Source: Syntrophorhabdus sp. PtaU1.Bin058 (GTDB lineage Bacteria; Desulfobacterota; Syntrophorhabdia; Syntrophorhabdales; Syntrophorhabdaceae). From it: DNA of 64,000 nucleotides. The notes beneath the pieces were generated by a model. That model was not told the DNA's origin. It searched no databases and worked only from the letters and a program-made list of their open reading frames with translations. Made by a program: the position numbers and the translations under genes. Below, one piece after another: positions 21,605-30,292 of the stretch (position 1 is its first letter; every line of letters starts with the position of its first letter). The DNA is taken from the NCBI GenBank assembly GCA_002067975.1, contig MVRS01000242.1, positions 1-64,000 of the forward strand, written 5' to 3'.

Positions 21605-21853
21605 ATGAAAAGGATCATCTTCGCCGTCTCGTTCTTCTTCGCGAATGCCCTTGACCTCTTCGCCCAGGACAAGGCGATAGAGGTCTTCCCTTCCGCGCCC
21701 TATGACAGGTTTATCATCTTCCAGGCGCTGGCGCTGTTCTGGATAGGCATCATCGGTCTTATCGTCATCATCAGGATGAAGCTCAGAGAGATTGAAAGAA
21801 TCCAGAAGATGGGGATAGATCGGGAACAGAAAGATACCCCTCTGCTTGACTAA
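21605..21853 (+). CDS. Small membrane protein of the cytochrome b operon
   Basis: An 82-residue protein, not recognised. It has an N-terminal signal segment (MKRIIFAVSFFFANALDLFA), a short periplasmic part, a transmembrane helix (ALALFWIGIIGLIVIIRMK) and a charged cytoplasmic tail. GGGGGATAT precedes ATG 21605 and it lies nine bases after cytochrome b. It is probably an accessory or assembly subunit of the Rieske/b complex (inference from position). Confidence 0.75.
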   Translation: MKRIIFAVSFFFANALDLFAQDKAIEVFPSAPYDRFIIFQALALFWIGIIGLIVIIRMKLREIERIQKMGIDREQKDTPLLD

Positions 21854-21880
21854 ACCGTTTCAAACTATTATTATTTCACA

Positions 21881-23770
21881 ATGTATCGTTCCATTACAAG
21901 GAATACCCTTTTTTCATCCTCCGCCATTCAGAAAATACGTGCCTTGCCGGCGGAAGACAGTATCCATACGTCTCTCCTGGAGATCCTCACAAAGTTTCAG
22001 GATATTAAAAAGTTCGCGAGCGAGATCCACACTGAGATCCACGTCGTAAAACCCATCCTGAAGATCCTCGGGCTTTCCTATGAATCAAAACCAAAGTTCT
22101 TTGAGGAGCACATAAAGGAACCCGATGCGGTACTCTTTGTATCGGAAGAAGAGAGGTTCAAAAGCTCCCGGCTCTGGGGGACCGTCGATTACTACGCAAA
22201 GGCGCTCGGGATATTGCTCCTCAAAAGATACGGGAGGAACCTGCAGGAGGGCATCACCGGTTTCTTTCTCGAATTCGAGAACAGGATACCCACATATCAG
22301 ATCGCATATCTCTTAAAGAAATCGAAAACCCCCTGGGGGATTCTCACAAACGGACGGGACTGGATACTCGTAAAAAGGCCCGTAAACTATGAATTACGGC
22401 TCCTCGCGCTTGACCTTGAAACGGCGATGTTTGAAAATGACCGGGACGCGCTGCAGCTCTTCTATGAAATCTTCTCCCTCACGGGGCTGACAAAAACAGT
22501 CCCCGACATCCTGGAGTGGGAGAGGGATTACCTCATCGAATTCCTGAAAGAAAAGAGGGATTCTGTCCAGAGATCATTACAGGGGGCCAGAAAAAAGGTC
22601 GAGGTATATCCGAGACTCATCGATTCCTTCAAAGAACTCTTCGGGGACAGGCAACTGCAATACTCCGAGTCATACCTCCTGGAGAAAAAGGTGGACCTGC
22701 CGCAAAAGCTCTACACGCAACCCGATGAGATCAGCGAACATAATGTGTCGGATATCTCGTCCTTTCTTTTCAGCAAAAAGGGGTATCAGACGAATACGGA
22801 CCTTGAGGAGATCTTCCTTGCCGATAAAAGTGCTTATACCACAAAAGAGCAGCTTCTCTCACTGACAATCCTCGACATGACCCCGAATTTCGGCAATCTT
22901 GCCAGCGACCTTATCGAAGGGCTCGCATATTTTGCCTTTGTCCTTCCATACCGTGAAAAAAATACCTTTGTCGCCGAATGGGAGGATGAGACACTGGTCA
23001 AGCGATACATCATTGACAACATCCTTTACGGCATAGAACGTTCACACCTTGCCCTTGATATCCTGCAAACCATGACAATGAACCGCTTCAAGACCAAGGC
23101 AAGACATTTCAAATACGGCAATCCCCTGATCGGTATGTCCATTGCAGATATGACGGCCTATTTCGACACAAAAAGCCAGATGGGTCTTTTCAACAAGAAT
23201 CCGCAGGACCTCATCAACGACTTCAGGGAGATGTACAGACTCTATTTCACCCTTTCAGACAGGATCAAGGAAGATATTCAGGTACGGGAAGACCTCGAAA
23301 GGAAGCTCAAACGATACGGGGAAAGGATACGCGACGCAATGGATCTCATCACCTCAACGTATTTCACGAAAACGGTGGACAGTAAAAAGATCCAGGATGT
23401 CCTCTCCAACCTCGACAGCGACGACGCTACCTGGGAAAACCTGACGAAAAAGGACTGGTTCATCGATGCCAGATCACTGGCGGGGAACAACGGCTTTTTC
23501 CACTTTGACGTGGGGTTCCCGTTCCTCCTGCACAACTCGTTCGATCTCATCTTTGTCCAGCCTGCCCTTCAATATGTCTGGGAAGAGAGTTTCCCTGTAG
23601 CCGAGGCGACAAAGGCATATATCAAAAGGGGCACACCCTACCTGAAACAGGGGGGCAAGATGGTGATCGTCCTCGACAATCCCGGAGATGACCTGATGGA
23701 AGAGTTGAGGAGATCAACACGATACGAAACCGGGCTACAGGGCGGATTCGTCATCCTGAAGAAAAAATAA
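21881..23770 (+). CDS. Type IIG RM-like protein with degenerate catalytic motifs
   Basis: A 629-residue protein laid out like a type IIG (Eco57I/PglX-type) restriction-methylation enzyme. The nuclease-like N-terminus has PDAVLF (near residue 80) and KTPWGILTNGRDW (near 148-160). A helical part and a Rossmann methylase region with NILYGIERSHLALDI and GNPLIG (near 412) follow. Catalytic motifs are abnormal: motif I reads DMTPNFGN (near 331) where DPACGSG is expected, the NPPY position reads VQPAL (near 559), and the E-x-K of the nuclease appears as LLLK before RYGRNL. The frame is intact and codon use ordinary, so it is retained rather than decaying. It lies 27 bases after the cytochrome b operon. 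Function unknown. Confidence 0.7.
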   Translation: MYRSITRNTLFSSSAIQKIRALPAEDSIHTSLLEILTKFQDIKKFASEIHTEIHVVKPILKILGLSYESKPKFFEEHIKEPDAVLFVSEEERFKSSRLWGTVDYYAKALGILLLKRYGRNLQEGITGFFLEFENRIPTYQIAYLLKKSKTPWGILTNGRDWILVKRPVNYELRLLALDLETAMFENDRDALQLFYEIFSLTGLTKTVPDILEWERDYLIEFLKEKRDSVQRSLQGARKKVEVYPRLIDSFKELFGDRQLQYSESYLLEKKVDLPQKLYTQPDEISEHNVSDISSFLFSKKGYQTNTDLEEIFLADKSAYTTKEQLLSLTILDMTPNFGNLASDLIEGLAYFAFVLPYREKNTFVAEWEDETLVKRYIIDNILYGIERSHLALDILQTMTMNRFKTKARHFKYGNPLIGMSIADMTAYFDTKSQMGLFNKNPQDLINDFREMYRLYFTLSDRIKEDIQVREDLERKLKRYGERIRDAMDLITSTYFTKTVDSKKIQDVLSNLDSDDATWENLTKKDWFIDARSLAGNNGFFHFDVGFPFLLHNSFDLIFVQPALQYVWEESFPVAEATKAYIKRGTPYLKQGGKMVIVLDNPGDDLMEELRRSTRYETGLQGGFVILKKK

Positions 23771-24188
23771 TCAGTCCGTAAAGATCGTATATCGTATGTC
23801 GACCGTAAGTCGTAAGGCGTGAGTCGTGAGGGGATTACTACCGCAAACAAATCGTGGATCGTAGTTCTCGTATCGATATTTCCCGAAAGAAGGTTCTGCG
23901 TGATGCGTTCGGCGAAGAGGCTCTTCCAGTCATGAGGACATCGGTGTCGGGCTTTCCCCGCAAACACGTGGAATAAAGGCAGTTAATAGTGAACGGTGAA
24001 AGCCTTGTCCCTCGTTGCTTGTCACTGGTTTGAACAAGTATCCAGCGACGAGCATCCGGCATCTGGTCTATTTAGTCTTTTCGTCTTAACCTTGAACGTT
24101 GAACAGATTTTTTGTCCCCTCACGATTTACGCCTAACGCCTTACGGGTTTATGCTTCTCGCTATCTACTATTCACTATCGACTATTCA
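23771..24188. repeat. Gene-free region filled with heptad arrays
   Basis: Seven in-phase heptamers occupy 23783-23831 (GATCGTA, TATCGTA, CGTAAGT, CGTGAGT and variants). 24010-24065 holds the CCTCGTT/GCATCCG vocabulary, 24084-24104 the TCTTAAC/GTTGAAC one, 24118-24145 the CCTCACG/CCTTACG one and 24161-24188 the CTATCTA/CTATTCA one. The last array overlaps the recO stop. No gene is seen. The stretch 24004-24107 is related to 35005-35126. Confidence 0.85.
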
Positions 24189-25082: not shown

Positions 25083-25153
25083 AAGTTTGATGTTGGATCG
25101 GGGTGTCACCCGGTCGGTAGAGGCCTCTCATAGTGAGAGGCTTTCTGCTTTTT
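25083..25153 (+). ncRNA. Putative orphan small RNA, about 70 nt
   Basis: A transcript of about 70 bases is predicted between the promoter at 25048-25076 and an intrinsic terminator. Hairpin 1 (25096-25115) has a seven-pair stem and loop GTGTCA. The terminator stem pairs GCCTCTCA (25123-25130) with TGAGAGGC (25134-25141) around TAG, then T-rich bases ending in five T (25149-25153). The last bases overlap the 3' end of the opposite-strand DUF3800 gene by two positions. It matches no RNA family I recognise. Antisense action on the DUF3800 mRNA end or trans action are both possible. Confidence 0.6.
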
Positions 25154-25892
25154 ATGGAAAGACCTTTAATCCCCACCCCTTATACTCTCCCTTTTTGTTA
25201 CAATAGATTTTTTTCTCAATGATATCAAATGGTATATACGGTATTTCAGGATTCAACAGATGCCTTGCCAGCGGATAGGCACATAAATCTGCAATTTGCA
25301 GCCCCGTCACATTCTCTTTTTTACTATAAAATCCAAAACTCAATATGGTCTTTTTCAGTCTTTGGCTGCTTATGTAATATGTCCCACGGTCCAGGATAGA
25401 GTTGAAGTGCGAGAGAAGCAATGTATCCTCTTTTTTTCCACGTTCTTCTACCTCAATTTCTACGGTTCCATTTTTGTCTAAGCTGTCTAAACAAAACATA
25501 AGCCGTTCAATAATAAAGGACAAGGAAAGGCTGTAAGGGTCTTTTGCAGACTTGCCATATTTTTTTATGTGCTTCTCTTTATTAATACCTGCACCAATGA
25601 TCTTGTAGGTTGTATTCTCGATAATCTTGTTCAAAGCAGCATAGAAACTCGCTTTGATATCCAGATTGAATAATATCTGGAATGGACCTTCACACTTTCG
25701 TATTTCTCGTGAATGAAGGATAATCTGTGTTGTCTTAAAGTATTTGGTTTTAAAGGTATTAATGTCGGTTTCCATTTTATTGAGATCGTCTTCCTGGAAT
25801 AGACATCCGCAAAGAAGAAAAAGAGGAAAATTTTTGTCAATATAGCTCAACCCGTGGTCGCCTGTTTCATCAAGAAAAAAGCGGTATTTCAT
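25152..25892 (-). CDS. DUF3800 protein, RM-associated
   Basis: A 246-residue DUF3800 protein, a family with an RNase H-like fold often found beside restriction or phage genes. Seen are the N-terminal FFLDETGDHG with its conserved Asp/Glu, an internal DSLDKNGTVEIEVEERGK block and, near the C-terminus, LQIADLCAYPLARHLLNP, the second acidic motif. Its ATG overlaps the hsdS stop by four bases (ATGA), so it is coupled to the RM genes. Base composition is AT-rich like its neighbours in the island. A nuclease role is inference. Confidence 0.85.
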   Translation of the reverse strand: MKYRFFLDETGDHGLSYIDKNFPLFLLCGCLFQEDDLNKMETDINTFKTKYFKTTQIILHSREIRKCEGPFQILFNLDIKASFYAALNKIIENTTYKIIGAGINKEKHIKKYGKSAKDPYSLSLSFIIERLMFCLDSLDKNGTVEIEVEERGKKEDTLLLSHFNSILDRGTYYISSQRLKKTILSFGFYSKKENVTGLQIADLCAYPLARHLLNPEIPYIPFDIIEKKIYCNKKGEYKGWGLKVFP

Positions 25893-27262
25893 GAGGTCCT
25901 GTTTTCAATAAGTCGTTCAACTTCTTTTTTCGCCTGTTCCAGGAGTTCTTTTGATCTTCTCCGCGCATCGTGGGATCGGCGGACCAGATCGGCAATCTTC
26001 TGCTGGGTAGGTTTGGGGAGGATCGGTAAAGCGATTTCTTTTAATGTCTCTTGATTGAGTCTTGCTTGCACGCTCCCTCTGCTTTCTCGAATCATTAATT
26101 GGGAGCCAACGGTGTTAAAAAATAGACTGACATAATAAGAATTTACTTTTTCTTCCGGGAAACGCAATCTTATGAGGTTGTCACTGATCGTACCGCCTTC
26201 AACCTCCCTGGGAAGCCTCGCGCTTATACCAATTGTTCCAACCCGTGTAACAACCACATCCCCCTCACGAGCTTTTTTTGAAGGGATTTGTCGCGAAGGA
26301 TCTATATAGACTAAATTTCCTATTTCCACAGTCCCGTTAGTTAAATCGGTGCCTCGGATATAAGGCTTGCCAATGACTCTGTTGATATATTCTTCCGAAT
26401 ATTGACCTGTTGTAACATTTATGAACTCCAATTCTTTGATTCTTTTAGCACCAAAATTATTAATCAGTTTTTGTTCTATTAACTTATATCTCGGTTGGAA
26501 ATATTCGGCATCACAACGGTGGGCAGATTTTACATCGAAAAGATTGACAACATAGGCGAGATCATCATTTACTTGGAAATCTTTTAAACCAAGTTCTTCC
26601 AGAAGAAGATTTTCAGAATCTGAATATAATTTTTTGGATTTATTGTGTTCTATTTCTGCACTCTTAACAAATGAGGCAACTTTTTCTTGTTTTTCTTTAG
26701 CGGGTATAAATATTGGTAATGATTTAAGATCATCCATGTTGATCCCTGTCTGTACTGCACCCCTAATATTTCTTTCCAGCAATTTTTTGCCATAGCGTGA
26801 ATTGAGATAAGTCAAAAAATAATAGGGATCAATTTTGCTTGACCTAAAAGCTGTACTTTTGCAGCTAAAAATTGATGGCAATGATGAGGTACTAACTAAT
26901 ACTGAACAACCTATTGTTCCCACTACTGAGATCAAAATATCGTTTTCTTTTAAAGAATATTTTTTTAAGCGCTCAAAGTCCTTATAGGGAATATACACAT
27001 TGTCGTTTTCTAGCAAAAAAAATTCTTTGACATCTTTGCCACGTACATACCTAAACTGGGTATTCTCAACATAATTATCAACATTGAATTCGGAACCAAA
27101 TGGACCAGTTATAAATTTACCTTCTATACTTCCCCAAAGTTGATAGAGACCTGTTGATAAAAGCCTGCTTTTCAATTCTAAATATTCCGGTTGATAGTAT
27201 TCCGCATCAATTCTCTTAGCGCTTTCAAGCTGAGATTTCTGAATGATCGAGTATGTGATCAT
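25889..27262 (-). CDS. hsdS: Restriction-modification specificity subunit HsdS
   Basis: A specificity subunit with two target-recognition domains. The first half includes EYYQPEYLELKSRL and ends NLLLEELGLKD; the second repeats the plan from CDAEYFQPRYKLIEQKL and ends RSHDARRRSKELLEQAKKE. The two helical spacers around residues 200-230 and 430-455 set the distance between half sites. ATG 27262 overlaps the upstream stop (ATGA); GTG 27274 is an alternative. The AT content is clearly higher than in flanking housekeeping genes, suggesting transfer. Confidence 0.9.
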   Translation of the reverse strand: MITYSIIQKSQLESAKRIDAEYYQPEYLELKSRLLSTGLYQLWGSIEGKFITGPFGSEFNVDNYVENTQFRYVRGKDVKEFFLLENDNVYIPYKDFERLKKYSLKENDILISVVGTIGCSVLVSTSSLPSIFSCKSTAFRSSKIDPYYFLTYLNSRYGKKLLERNIRGAVQTGINMDDLKSLPIFIPAKEKQEKVASFVKSAEIEHNKSKKLYSDSENLLLEELGLKDFQVNDDLAYVVNLFDVKSAHRCDAEYFQPRYKLIEQKLINNFGAKRIKELEFINVTTGQYSEEYINRVIGKPYIRGTDLTNGTVEIGNLVYIDPSRQIPSKKAREGDVVVTRVGTIGISARLPREVEGGTISDNLIRLRFPEEKVNSYYVSLFFNTVGSQLMIRESRGSVQARLNQETLKEIALPILPKPTQQKIADLVRRSHDARRRSKELLEQAKKEVERLIENRTS

Positions 27263-29271
27263 TTGGCCCACCACTCAAATCGTTCTTTCTTCGCAAACTT
27301 TACAAACTCTTCAGCGATCTCATTCAGGTCATCGTCGAGCCTAAGATTCTCATGGAGTTCAAAGAAACCCTGATCGGCGTTTATCCTTTTACCATCGCCG
27401 TTAACATAAATATATTCACCGGAATTATCTTTCCCCGATTTCTTCGATACTGCCATAAAAATGGGATAATCCTCCAACGGCTCTTCATTCTCTTTCCATT
27501 TTTGCAAGAACAGGACAGAGGTTTTTGTGCCGGTACCTTTTGCGGGTGCAGGGAGTTTAAAGGTATTCCCCTCCAATCCCACAACTGCTAGGATACGCGC
27601 CTTTTCAAGAAACCATTCCCGTATCCATTCCATGTTTGTGTTATTAAAAACTCCTTGCGGCAAAACAATTGCCATCCTTCCGCCGGGACGGAGGGTATCC
27701 AAAGAACGCTCGATAAAAAGAAGATGCCTTTCAACCTTTTGTTTGAGCTTTCCGTTCTTTTTCGCAAACTCGTACTGACGGAGAAGCCCTGTGTCTGTTA
27801 TCTCTCCTGCAAAGGGCGGGTTAGTCATCAGGATGTCAAAATTGAGATAACGGTAGGTCTTGCGGTTTTCTTCATCCTCTTTTGTGTTTTTAAAACGATG
27901 CAAGATCGCTTTGAGCGATGCCCTTGCGCCCTCTGCCTGTTCCCCTATCCAGTCCCTGCTGTCAAGGGAATTGCGCTTGAAAATATTGTGCCTACCATCC
28001 CCTGCAATAAGCATTAACGCCTGAGAGATACGCCTCATATTGTCATCAAAATCAATGCCGTACAAATAGCGATTGGCGTATTTCTGCTTCGCTGTCTGTG
28101 AGGCAGTTTTTAACCGGTTATCCCACACCCAATACATCGTATGCAACAAGAACCCGCCCGATCCGCAGGCAGGGTCAACAATATATTCATCCTGAGCAGG
28201 GTTGAGCATTTTCACGCACATCTTGATGACGTTGCGGGGCGTGAAATACTGTCCTTTCTGGCCCTTAGAAACTTCGGCTATCAGGTGTTCGAAGGCACGG
28301 TCAATAATCTCCAGTTCTTCCCTGCCGGAGCCAAAAAATTTAACATCCTCAAGAAAAGGTATACATATCTGGAGTTGTTCCGGAGTCAGATCAATCTTTG
28401 CCAACGGATTGAAGATATCGGGCCATTCGTTGAGAGCACCCTTGAAAAGTTCGTCATTGATGATTGCATAGGTTTTTTTCGATTCTTTGTATAACCTAAA
28501 ATGAATCTCGTTGTTGGGGCGAATATTTTTTGCTTGGTCTTCATCGTACAACTTTGCGTAGATTAGTTTGAAGACCTCCTCAAAGACGTTCACTCCTGCC
28601 TGCGCCAAGACCATTTCTTCCAGGCGGGATATAATAAATGAAAGGTCAAACTTCTCTTTTAATTCATCATAGGTTTTCTTTATATCAAAAAGATCATCCC
28701 AGGTTTGATAAACACTTGGTATATCGGAAAGAGCGGTTACATACTCTTTCGGATATGGGCGATAGAGTATGAATTTTTCAATGCCATTAGACCAAACACC
28801 GCCTTCTGCCCCTTCGGCGCTTAGGTATGACTTTAGCTGTTCTTGGGCCTTCTTGGTATCGGGTTGTTTTAGCTCAAAAACAATATAAGGGGTGATCCTG
28901 TCTTCTTTGTACAACACAATATCGGCAGCCTTTTCCCTCACTTCCCTGCCGAACTGGACTGATTTTTCAACCTCTATTCTATCCAAAGGATACTTATAAT
29001 CCTCAGTCAATTTGATCAGCCACAACTGCCGTATCACTTCTTCCGGTTTTCCGGTCTTTTTGTTCTTGTCGTAAACAAATATATCTTTGTTCCGCTTCAC
29101 ACACTTTACATAAAATCTTCCCTGTTCCTTTTCAAACATTTTGACTTTATGCAGGATTGCTTTTGAAAATTCCTGCAAACCGTGCTTTACTGAGGAATCT
29201 TTAAAGACAAGATCAAATATCTCGTCGGTATCAATCTTTTCTTTTGGAAGCTCGTATTTTATGTCAACCAT
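27259..29271 (-). CDS. Fused HsdR-N nuclease and N6-adenine methylase
   Basis: A 670-residue fusion. Residues 1-170 form an HSDR_N-type PD-(D/E)xK domain with ADIVLY (Asp117) and FELKQPD (Glu133, Lys135). Residues about 220-650 are an N6-adenine methylase with motif I DPACGSGGF (near 367) and catalytic NPPF (near 483). No SF2 helicase motor is present in the protein or nearby, so it differs from type I HsdR. The R-M fusion plus separate S gene recalls BcgI-like type IIB systems. GGGGGGTGT precedes ATG 29271. Confidence 0.88.
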   Translation of the reverse strand: MVDIKYELPKEKIDTDEIFDLVFKDSSVKHGLQEFSKAILHKVKMFEKEQGRFYVKCVKRNKDIFVYDKNKKTGKPEEVIRQLWLIKLTEDYKYPLDRIEVEKSVQFGREVREKAADIVLYKEDRITPYIVFELKQPDTKKAQEQLKSYLSAEGAEGGVWSNGIEKFILYRPYPKEYVTALSDIPSVYQTWDDLFDIKKTYDELKEKFDLSFIISRLEEMVLAQAGVNVFEEVFKLIYAKLYDEDQAKNIRPNNEIHFRLYKESKKTYAIINDELFKGALNEWPDIFNPLAKIDLTPEQLQICIPFLEDVKFFGSGREELEIIDRAFEHLIAEVSKGQKGQYFTPRNVIKMCVKMLNPAQDEYIVDPACGSGGFLLHTMYWVWDNRLKTASQTAKQKYANRYLYGIDFDDNMRRISQALMLIAGDGRHNIFKRNSLDSRDWIGEQAEGARASLKAILHRFKNTKEDEENRKTYRYLNFDILMTNPPFAGEITDTGLLRQYEFAKKNGKLKQKVERHLLFIERSLDTLRPGGRMAIVLPQGVFNNTNMEWIREWFLEKARILAVVGLEGNTFKLPAPAKGTGTKTSVLFLQKWKENEEPLEDYPIFMAVSKKSGKDNSGEYIYVNGDGKRINADQGFFELHENLRLDDDLNEIAEEFVKFAKKERFEWWAK

Positions 29272-29572: not shown

Positions 29573-30292
29573 TTATCTTTCCACTATCTCCTTGCCCTTT
29601 TCCGGCCTGTATATGAATCGCGCATCGTCGACGCCGCGGTTTATCTTCACCGCTGAAAATTCTATCGTATTGACGTTGCCGGTGAATTCACGGATCTCGA
29701 TCTTCTGCACGATATTCTGTTTATCGATCCATATCTCTGCCGAGTTCACCCCGCTGTCCTTCTTCGGCACGATCTCCAGGATCTCAAGATCGCCGGCGAT
29801 AACATGCTGCTTCAGCGTGAACAGCTCGTCGATCCTTGCAATATCGTCGATGAGGTCAAGGAACGTGCCTGTCGTCTTCTCCTTCCTGATCCTCTCTTTT
29901 ACGACAAAGGACTTTTCGTCTTCTCCCTGCCACATATATTTTCCGTCATAGAGGAAGAACTTCACTTTCGGCGTCCTGTACTTCCACAAGAACCCTTTAT
30001 TCCGTTTGTAGAAAAAATCCCCCTCGAACGTCCTTTCCTTCTTTAGACCCGCGATAAATATCTTCTGATGAAAGACCGCCTCCAGTGAGTTCACCCCGGA
30101 GTATGTCTTCTTCAGGGCATCGAAGGGAGATGATACGGCAGTTCGGAGTTCGGAGTTCGGAGTTCGGAGTTCTGAAGCATAAAGAGAGCCGGCGGAAACC
30201 TGAATAAGCATAACCACAATAAGTGCAATAATCCTGATGCCAACCTTAAAAGAAATAGCGGTCTTTCTCCGAACTCTGGGCTCCGAACTCAT
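29573..30292 (-). CDS. lolA: Outer-membrane lipoprotein carrier LolA-like
   Basis: A periplasmic carrier that takes lipoproteins from LolCDE to the outer membrane. After a signal segment (GIRIIALIVVMLIQVSAGSLYA) the mature part shows the LolA pattern: LEAVFHQKIFIAGLKKERTFEGDFFYKRNKGFLWKY (abridged motif F-x-Q and G-x-F/W-Y), then KKDSGVNSAEIWIDKQN. The first 15 residues (MSSEPRVRRK…) and residues around SELRTPNSELRT after the signal are encoded by heptad repeats and are not family features. ATG 30292 overlaps the ftsK stop (TAATG). Confidence 0.85.
   Translation of the reverse strand: MSSEPRVRRKTAISFKVGIRIIALIVVMLIQVSAGSLYASELRTPNSELRTAVSSPFDALKKTYSGVNSLEAVFHQKIFIAGLKKERTFEGDFFYKRNKGFLWKYRTPKVKFFLYDGKYMWQGEDEKSFVVKERIRKEKTTGTFLDLIDDIARIDELFTLKQHVIAGDLEILEIVPKKDSGVNSAEIWIDKQNIVQKIEIREFTGNVNTIEFSAVKINRGVDDARFIYRPEKGKEIVER
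30141..30175 (-). repeat. Heptad array inside lolA
   Basis: Four exact GTTCGGA units and a final GTTCTGA (plus strand) at 30141-30175. They encode a seven-residue protein repeat beginning SELRT just after the predicted signal cleavage site. Confidence 0.92.

Follow-up and report, generated by a model that had tools for sequence, protein, structure and literature searches.

Probable domestication of a Type IIG restriction-modification gene in two families of Syntrophorhabdales

Known relatives and the locus

As mobile genes of defence, restriction-modification genes tend both to spread and to decay. Type IIG enzymes owe their sequence-specific DNA recognition to a specificity domain, and in N6-type methyltransferases the group N/D-PP-Y/F holds the amine. 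Orphan or shortened relatives of Type IIG enzymes are already known. The orphan methyltransferases DnmA of Bacillus subtilis (PMC9973331) and CamA of Clostridioides difficile are solitary chromosomal methyltransferase-fold proteins that serve outside defence and methylate DNA, and HVO_A0006 of Haloferax volcanii is a shortened Type IIG relative (PMC4389544) of 219 aa that consists of the nuclease domain only, with ExK intact, and is rare and flanked by transposition genes. The gene analysed here lies in a window of 64,000 nucleotides (contig MVRS01000242.1 of Syntrophorhabdus sp. PtaU1.Bin058, positions 1 to 64,000 of the forward strand) and encodes a protein of 629 aa. It resembles DnmA and CamA in being a solitary chromosomal gene outside defence, but its product has lost the methyl-transfer motif; unlike HVO_A0006, it belongs to the core genes and encodes a pseudo-methyltransferase domain. 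PglX/BrxX and DrdV are active enzymes with a target-recognition domain. The 629-aa gene has no adjoining BREX genes (brx/pgl), its neighbours being sdh-Rieske-cytochrome b genes, recO or other variable genes, and no DISARM genes (drmA/B/C) in a survey made by locus similarity and reading rather than by an HMM for every neighbour. A literature search of limited scope found no paper on this family.

We consider it very probable that a Type IIG gene has here been domesticated under selection, and the data suggest that a defence protein was converted to a housekeeping protein in a bacterial lineage. In a lineage of mostly uncultured bacteria, the gene of such an enzyme seems to have settled permanently under a conserved promoter of its own, having lost its specificity domain and known catalytic motifs; it is a clear case in which to ask if a methyltransferase fold may persist as a sensor and if the active site of a nuclease may be rebuilt. 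The frame and its domains are as follows.

21881-23770, + strand: pseudo-Type IIG open reading frame, 629 aa, open from ATG to TAA
21881-22477, + strand: PD-(D/E)XK-like N-terminal domain, about residues 1-199 (hhalign to intact relatives, model, VIA-align to DrdV)
22334-22354, + strand: WGILTNG, residues 152-158, in the N-terminal domain (hhalign)
22478-22684, + strand: long-helix connector, about residues 200-268 (AlphaFold2 model), evolving fast
22841-23767, + strand: methyltransferase-fold domain, residues 321-629 (model, hhalign, structure matches)

Fold and descent from full-length enzymes

The frame proposed in an earlier note on this DNA is open throughout, and every string that the note had quoted is present (WGILTNG as listed, DMTPNFGN at residues 332-339, GNPLIG at 413-418 and VQPAL at 559-563). 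By hhalign, the 629-aa family aligns unambiguously with 12 longer relatives, one (L051) from the window's own family and the others from elsewhere in the phylum (probability 99.95, E 2.5e-38, 585 columns). The alignment pairs DMTPNFG with DPAMGSG, YGIERS with FGVDLN, GNPLIG with GNSLIG, VQPAL with GNPPW and LLKRYGR with EAKRWER. Because the same strings thereby fall on their counterpart motifs, the note's motif alignment is correct, and the Eco57I/PglX-type motif order that it had recognized agrees with both the profile-profile alignment and the predicted fold. The AlphaFold2 model, made from an alignment of 16 members (mean pLDDT 82.4, pTM 0.83), carries a nuclease-like domain, a helical connector and an N6-methyltransferase fold in one chain, as in Type IIG enzymes. 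Its best Foldseek matches among solved structures are DrdV, PglX/BrxX and BpuSI, with E values of 1e-5 to 5e-4 for PglX/BrxX and DrdV. VIA-align places 383 residues on DrdV, beginning at model residue 25 (Z 16.1), with an rmsd of 13.8 because the domains are placed differently, and 198 residues on CamA at 3.3 A (Z 14.7). Pfam and NCBIfam searches with the 629-aa protein gave no match, Pfam scans of 24 members gave chance-level matches only, and searching PDB sequences with a profile brought up nothing beyond chance-like matches in the connector helix. PADLOC assigns the protein a weak DrmMI match (E 4.8e-8); automated defence finders may report genes of this kind as weak matches to DISARM or Type IIG.

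Most of the longer relatives measure 1300-1500 aa, as against 629 aa here. Two Eco57I/DrmMI-like Type IIG enzymes (PF07669 plus TaqI_C; L050 1407-5498 and L051 3840-7946), in which the TaqI_C specificity domain follows the methyltransferase domain, share with the 629-aa protein the domain order, WGxLT(N/D)G, a GNSLIG-type block and the FFH-EFP region, but such enzymes have intact EAK, DPAMGSG and NPPY/W motifs and a specificity domain, all of which are altered or absent in the shorter protein. The ExK Glu is retained in 11 of the 12 longer relatives and GNPPY/W in all 12, while DPAMGSG is matched exactly in seven, the other five falling outside the pattern used. The full-length Type IIG relative at L109 617-4531 (G407:C107) has GNPPW intact and the ExK Glu replaced by Val (LVAK). 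The 629-aa family has neither the middle helical domain nor the target-recognition (specificity) domain of Type IIG enzymes, since the chain stops at the methyltransferase domain; the earlier note had mentioned neither loss. Sequence comparison shows that a full-length Type IIG restriction-modification enzyme of the Eco57I/DrmMI-like kind gave rise to the gene, and places the losses (specificity and middle helical domains, NPPY and the ExK Glu) in the ancestor of two Syntrophorhabdales families.

Former methyltransferase and nuclease sites

22874-22894, + strand: motif I, D332-M-T-P-N-F-G338 (family consensus D-M-T-P-G/N-F-G)
23036-23038, + strand: E386, invariant, corresponding to the acidic residue by which active enzymes hold the SAM ribose
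23117-23134, + strand: GNPLIG, counterpart of GNSLIG
23543-23569, + strand: D555-L-I-F-V-Q560-P561-A-L, the former catalytic motif IV, FDxxxxNPPY
22124-22126, + strand: D82, aspartate of the PD motif, invariant in 32/32 members
22217-22225, + strand: L113-L114-K115, the former E-x-K (Glu gone and Lys retained, each in 32/32)
22271-22282, + strand: E131-F-E133-N134, block after the Lys, newly conserved and unconserved in intact relatives

Motif I is DMTPGFG in most relatives, and thus D332 and G338 are retained, although the canonical SAM loop is altered in that position 336 is either G or N. T334, P335, G338, E386, G413, L416, G418 and D555 are identical in 32/32 members, and D332, Q560 and P561 in 31/32. 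The Type IIG motif (N/D)PP(Y/F/W) has given way to VQPx in nearly all members, aligned on NPPW/Y, and this loss of NPPY argues against an orphan DNA methyltransferase of the DnmA/CamA type. Perhaps the fold still acts on another substrate (RNA, protein or a small molecule), VQP serving as its new motif IV; D332, T334, P335, G338, E386, D555, Q560 and P561 are near-invariant, and O-, tRNA- and DNA-methyltransferases are all among the matches of the fold. The tolerance of N or G at position 336 and the loss of N/D-PP-Y/F nevertheless lead us to regard such an activity as improbable. Near-invariant columns account for 16/33 positions in the former SAM-site motifs versus 59/309 domain-wide (hypergeometric p 4e-5), a value that by itself does not prove ligand binding because structural residues add to the enrichment.

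For the nuclease domain, the claim that E-x-K is missing stands in part. The intact PD...(D/E)xK site of Type IIG enzymes is gone, all 32 members having a non-acidic residue, such as L, V, Q or M, in place of the Glu, but D82, K115 and Q140 are kept in every one of them, and E48 is invariant as well. In addition, E133 and N134 occur in 32/32 members and E131 in 28/32 (with Asp in two more), a conservation confined to the 629-aa family. Catalytic degeneracy, as proposed in the earlier note, therefore needs a caveat for the nuclease part, in which D82, K115 and Q140 are invariant and a downstream Glu has newly become so. The conserved D82, K115 and E133 supply an Asp, a Lys and a downstream Glu as in permuted nucleases of the Cfr10I type, and the domain might accordingly be permuted rather than dead, with its catalytic Glu now 16-18 residues past the Lys (PD...K...E, as in Cfr10I, NgoMIV and EcoRII) and with a putative methylation-independent activity, possibly structure-selective or SAM-gated. 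CCGG-family enzymes provide documented cases of a PD...K...D/E permutation (PMC6344858; PMC551604), and the two Glu residues concerned, of which E131 is acidic in 30/32 members, are unconserved in intact relatives. The stretch 120-136, however, has low confidence in both the full-length model and that of the N-terminal domain alone, and hence any spatial proximity of these residues is putative. The lone N-terminal model is itself poor (pLDDT 64), and a fold search with it gave nothing significant, the absence of a match from such a model being no evidence. Moreover, the conserved acidic residues could instead support folding or binding, and a free nuclease with neither specificity nor methylation would require tight control. 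We therefore think a permuted nuclease unlikely, if worth keeping in mind.

Because the former SAM pocket and D82, K115 and Q140 are unusually conserved and E131 and E133 are new, the 629-aa protein probably still binds a ligand. The mechanism that we tentatively prefer, while giving it somewhat less than an even chance, would make the protein a housekeeping regulator that responds to a ligand, and not a restriction enzyme. The methyltransferase fold would have lost methylation but still bind SAM, SAH or a similar nucleotide in a retained pocket formed by D332, G338, E386 and GNPLIG; binding would shift the state of the N-terminal nuclease-fold domain through the helical connector, and that domain would touch nucleic acid or a partner protein. 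Coupling of a SAM pocket to a nuclease has a precedent in RM.BpuSI, in which a SAM-binding mutation abolishes cleavage (PMC3817140). Weighing against the mechanism are the altered SAM loop, the lack of a conserved functional neighbour, a net charge that does not point to DNA binding and the absence of the gene from a third family of the order. A more specific proposal, a SAM-responsive, non-methylating core housekeeping nuclease or regulator with its site rebuilt as PD-xxK-E and a lineage-wide function unrelated to phage defence, seems to us rather unlikely. The DNA-binding role suggested in the earlier note is not borne out, the specificity domain being absent and the net charge -10 to +1, although DNA could possibly be bound via the N-terminal domain.

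Distribution, selection and genomic setting

Of 46 genomes of the class, 42 carry the gene, each in one copy when copies divided over contigs are taken as one. It is single-copy in 38/39 genomes of the window's family and found in 4/4 of a second family and 0/3 of a third, and thus is not needed by the whole order. An assembly gap is possible in the sole negative genome of the window's family (G013), as the neighbouring genes are missing there too. Beyond the class, a search of 395 genomes of the phylum yielded just distant relatives that are longer or fragmentary, phage records and viral contigs contained none, and plasmid matches are distant Eco57I/TaqI_C-type enzymes, haloarchaeal for the most part. 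When compared by eye with a tree of FtsK from 30 genomes, the gene tree reproduces 13 of 14 strongly supported clades, the remaining one being unresolved, which indicates vertical descent. Pairwise dN/dS is 0.06-0.14 (NG86), or 0.15-0.22 within the genus (YN00), with about 0.07-0.13 in the N-terminal and methyltransferase domains and 0.15-0.26 in the connector.

A decaying, non-functional restriction-modification gene might be read from the loss of catalytic motifs and specificity domain, yet dN/dS is far below 1, no gene copy found has an in-frame stop, the promoter is conserved and two families share the same state, making decay extremely improbable. The substitutions of the window's copy are fixed across the 32 homologues, and relatives with intact motifs are only distant full-length enzymes (25-27% identity) and so do not reveal recent decay here; together with low dN/dS and single-copy occurrence, this bears out the view that the gene encodes a repurposed pseudo-enzyme and is not dead. 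A candidate frameshift in G005 (L007/L035) was rejected as decay, being a 100-N scaffold gap with a repeated flank.

The protein could instead be a ligand-free scaffold or structural subunit, for instance one that associates with another restriction-modification or defence complex. Such a role has been proposed for HVO_A0006, an N-terminal Type IIG fragment whose deletion alters m6A methylation (PMC4389544), and the 629-aa protein has kept its fold while losing catalytic parts. We hold this to be unlikely, given that there is no conserved defence neighbour, that inheritance is near-universal and vertical, unlike that of defence genes, and that a full-length homologue occurs alongside in only 1/42 genomes at the sensitivity used.

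Two promoter elements precede the domesticated gene.

21846-21851, + strand: -35 element TTGACT, overlapping the stop of the upstream 82-aa gene; 33/33 loci
21869-21874, + strand: -10 element TATTAT, after a 17-nt spacer and 6 nt before the ATG

In all 33 loci, TTGACT is followed after 17-18 nt by TATNAT (TATTCT in two), 5-17 nt 5' of the ATG, and none has a Shine-Dalgarno-like sequence; the transcript is probably leaderless or has a short leader. In most loci the -35 element shares its sequence with the 3' end of the preceding gene (CTT GAC TAA), but the promoter is retained in six loci that have no adjoining upstream gene (lost in four, distant or elsewhere in two of the second family), and hence seems to be kept for the 629-aa gene. 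As a promoter scan of the single window found three against 2.7 expected, which is not above chance, the evidence is the conservation across loci. The comparison shows that, besides undergoing the losses, the gene became single-copy, vertically inherited and chromosomal, with its own (probably leaderless) promoter.

In most genomes the order is sdhC-sdhA-sdhB-Rieske-cytochrome b-82aa with the 629-aa gene directly 3', as would be expected of a component of a succinate dehydrogenase/Rieske-cytochrome b module. Four genomes that are 97-100% complete (G026, G023, G028 and G008) nevertheless keep the gene without having cytochrome b, the 82-aa gene or SdhA, and G038 and G040 show the reverse. The cluster losses are three separate events on the FtsK tree, G023 and G028 being sisters. 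With this co-distribution and a promoter of the gene's own, membership of the module was dropped as very improbable; the cluster is dispensable and the gene's position therefore says nothing of its function. On the downstream side lie variable genes, among them recO and one with a metallo-beta-lactamase fold, and the neighbourhood survey of the loci found no conserved functional neighbour. A second-family cytochrome b (G037:C17:12977-14032, six-frame match) contains one in-frame TGA, either a sequencing error or a true break.

An Rfam search of window positions 13000-35000 gave no match. Between the 629-aa gene and recO, 23803-23834 and 24115-24146 are inverted arms of a dispersed intergenic repeat of the GTCGTAAGGCGTGAGTCGTGAG type, of which the window's genome holds 52 pieces. 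Beyond recO, a restriction-modification island at 25152-29271 precedes the gene at 29573 and comprises an HSDR_N-fused methyltransferase with DPACGSG and NPPF intact, a specificity subunit and a DUF3800 gene. In L032 and L053, recO directly adjoins the counterpart of the gene at 29573, and congeners thus show the empty site.
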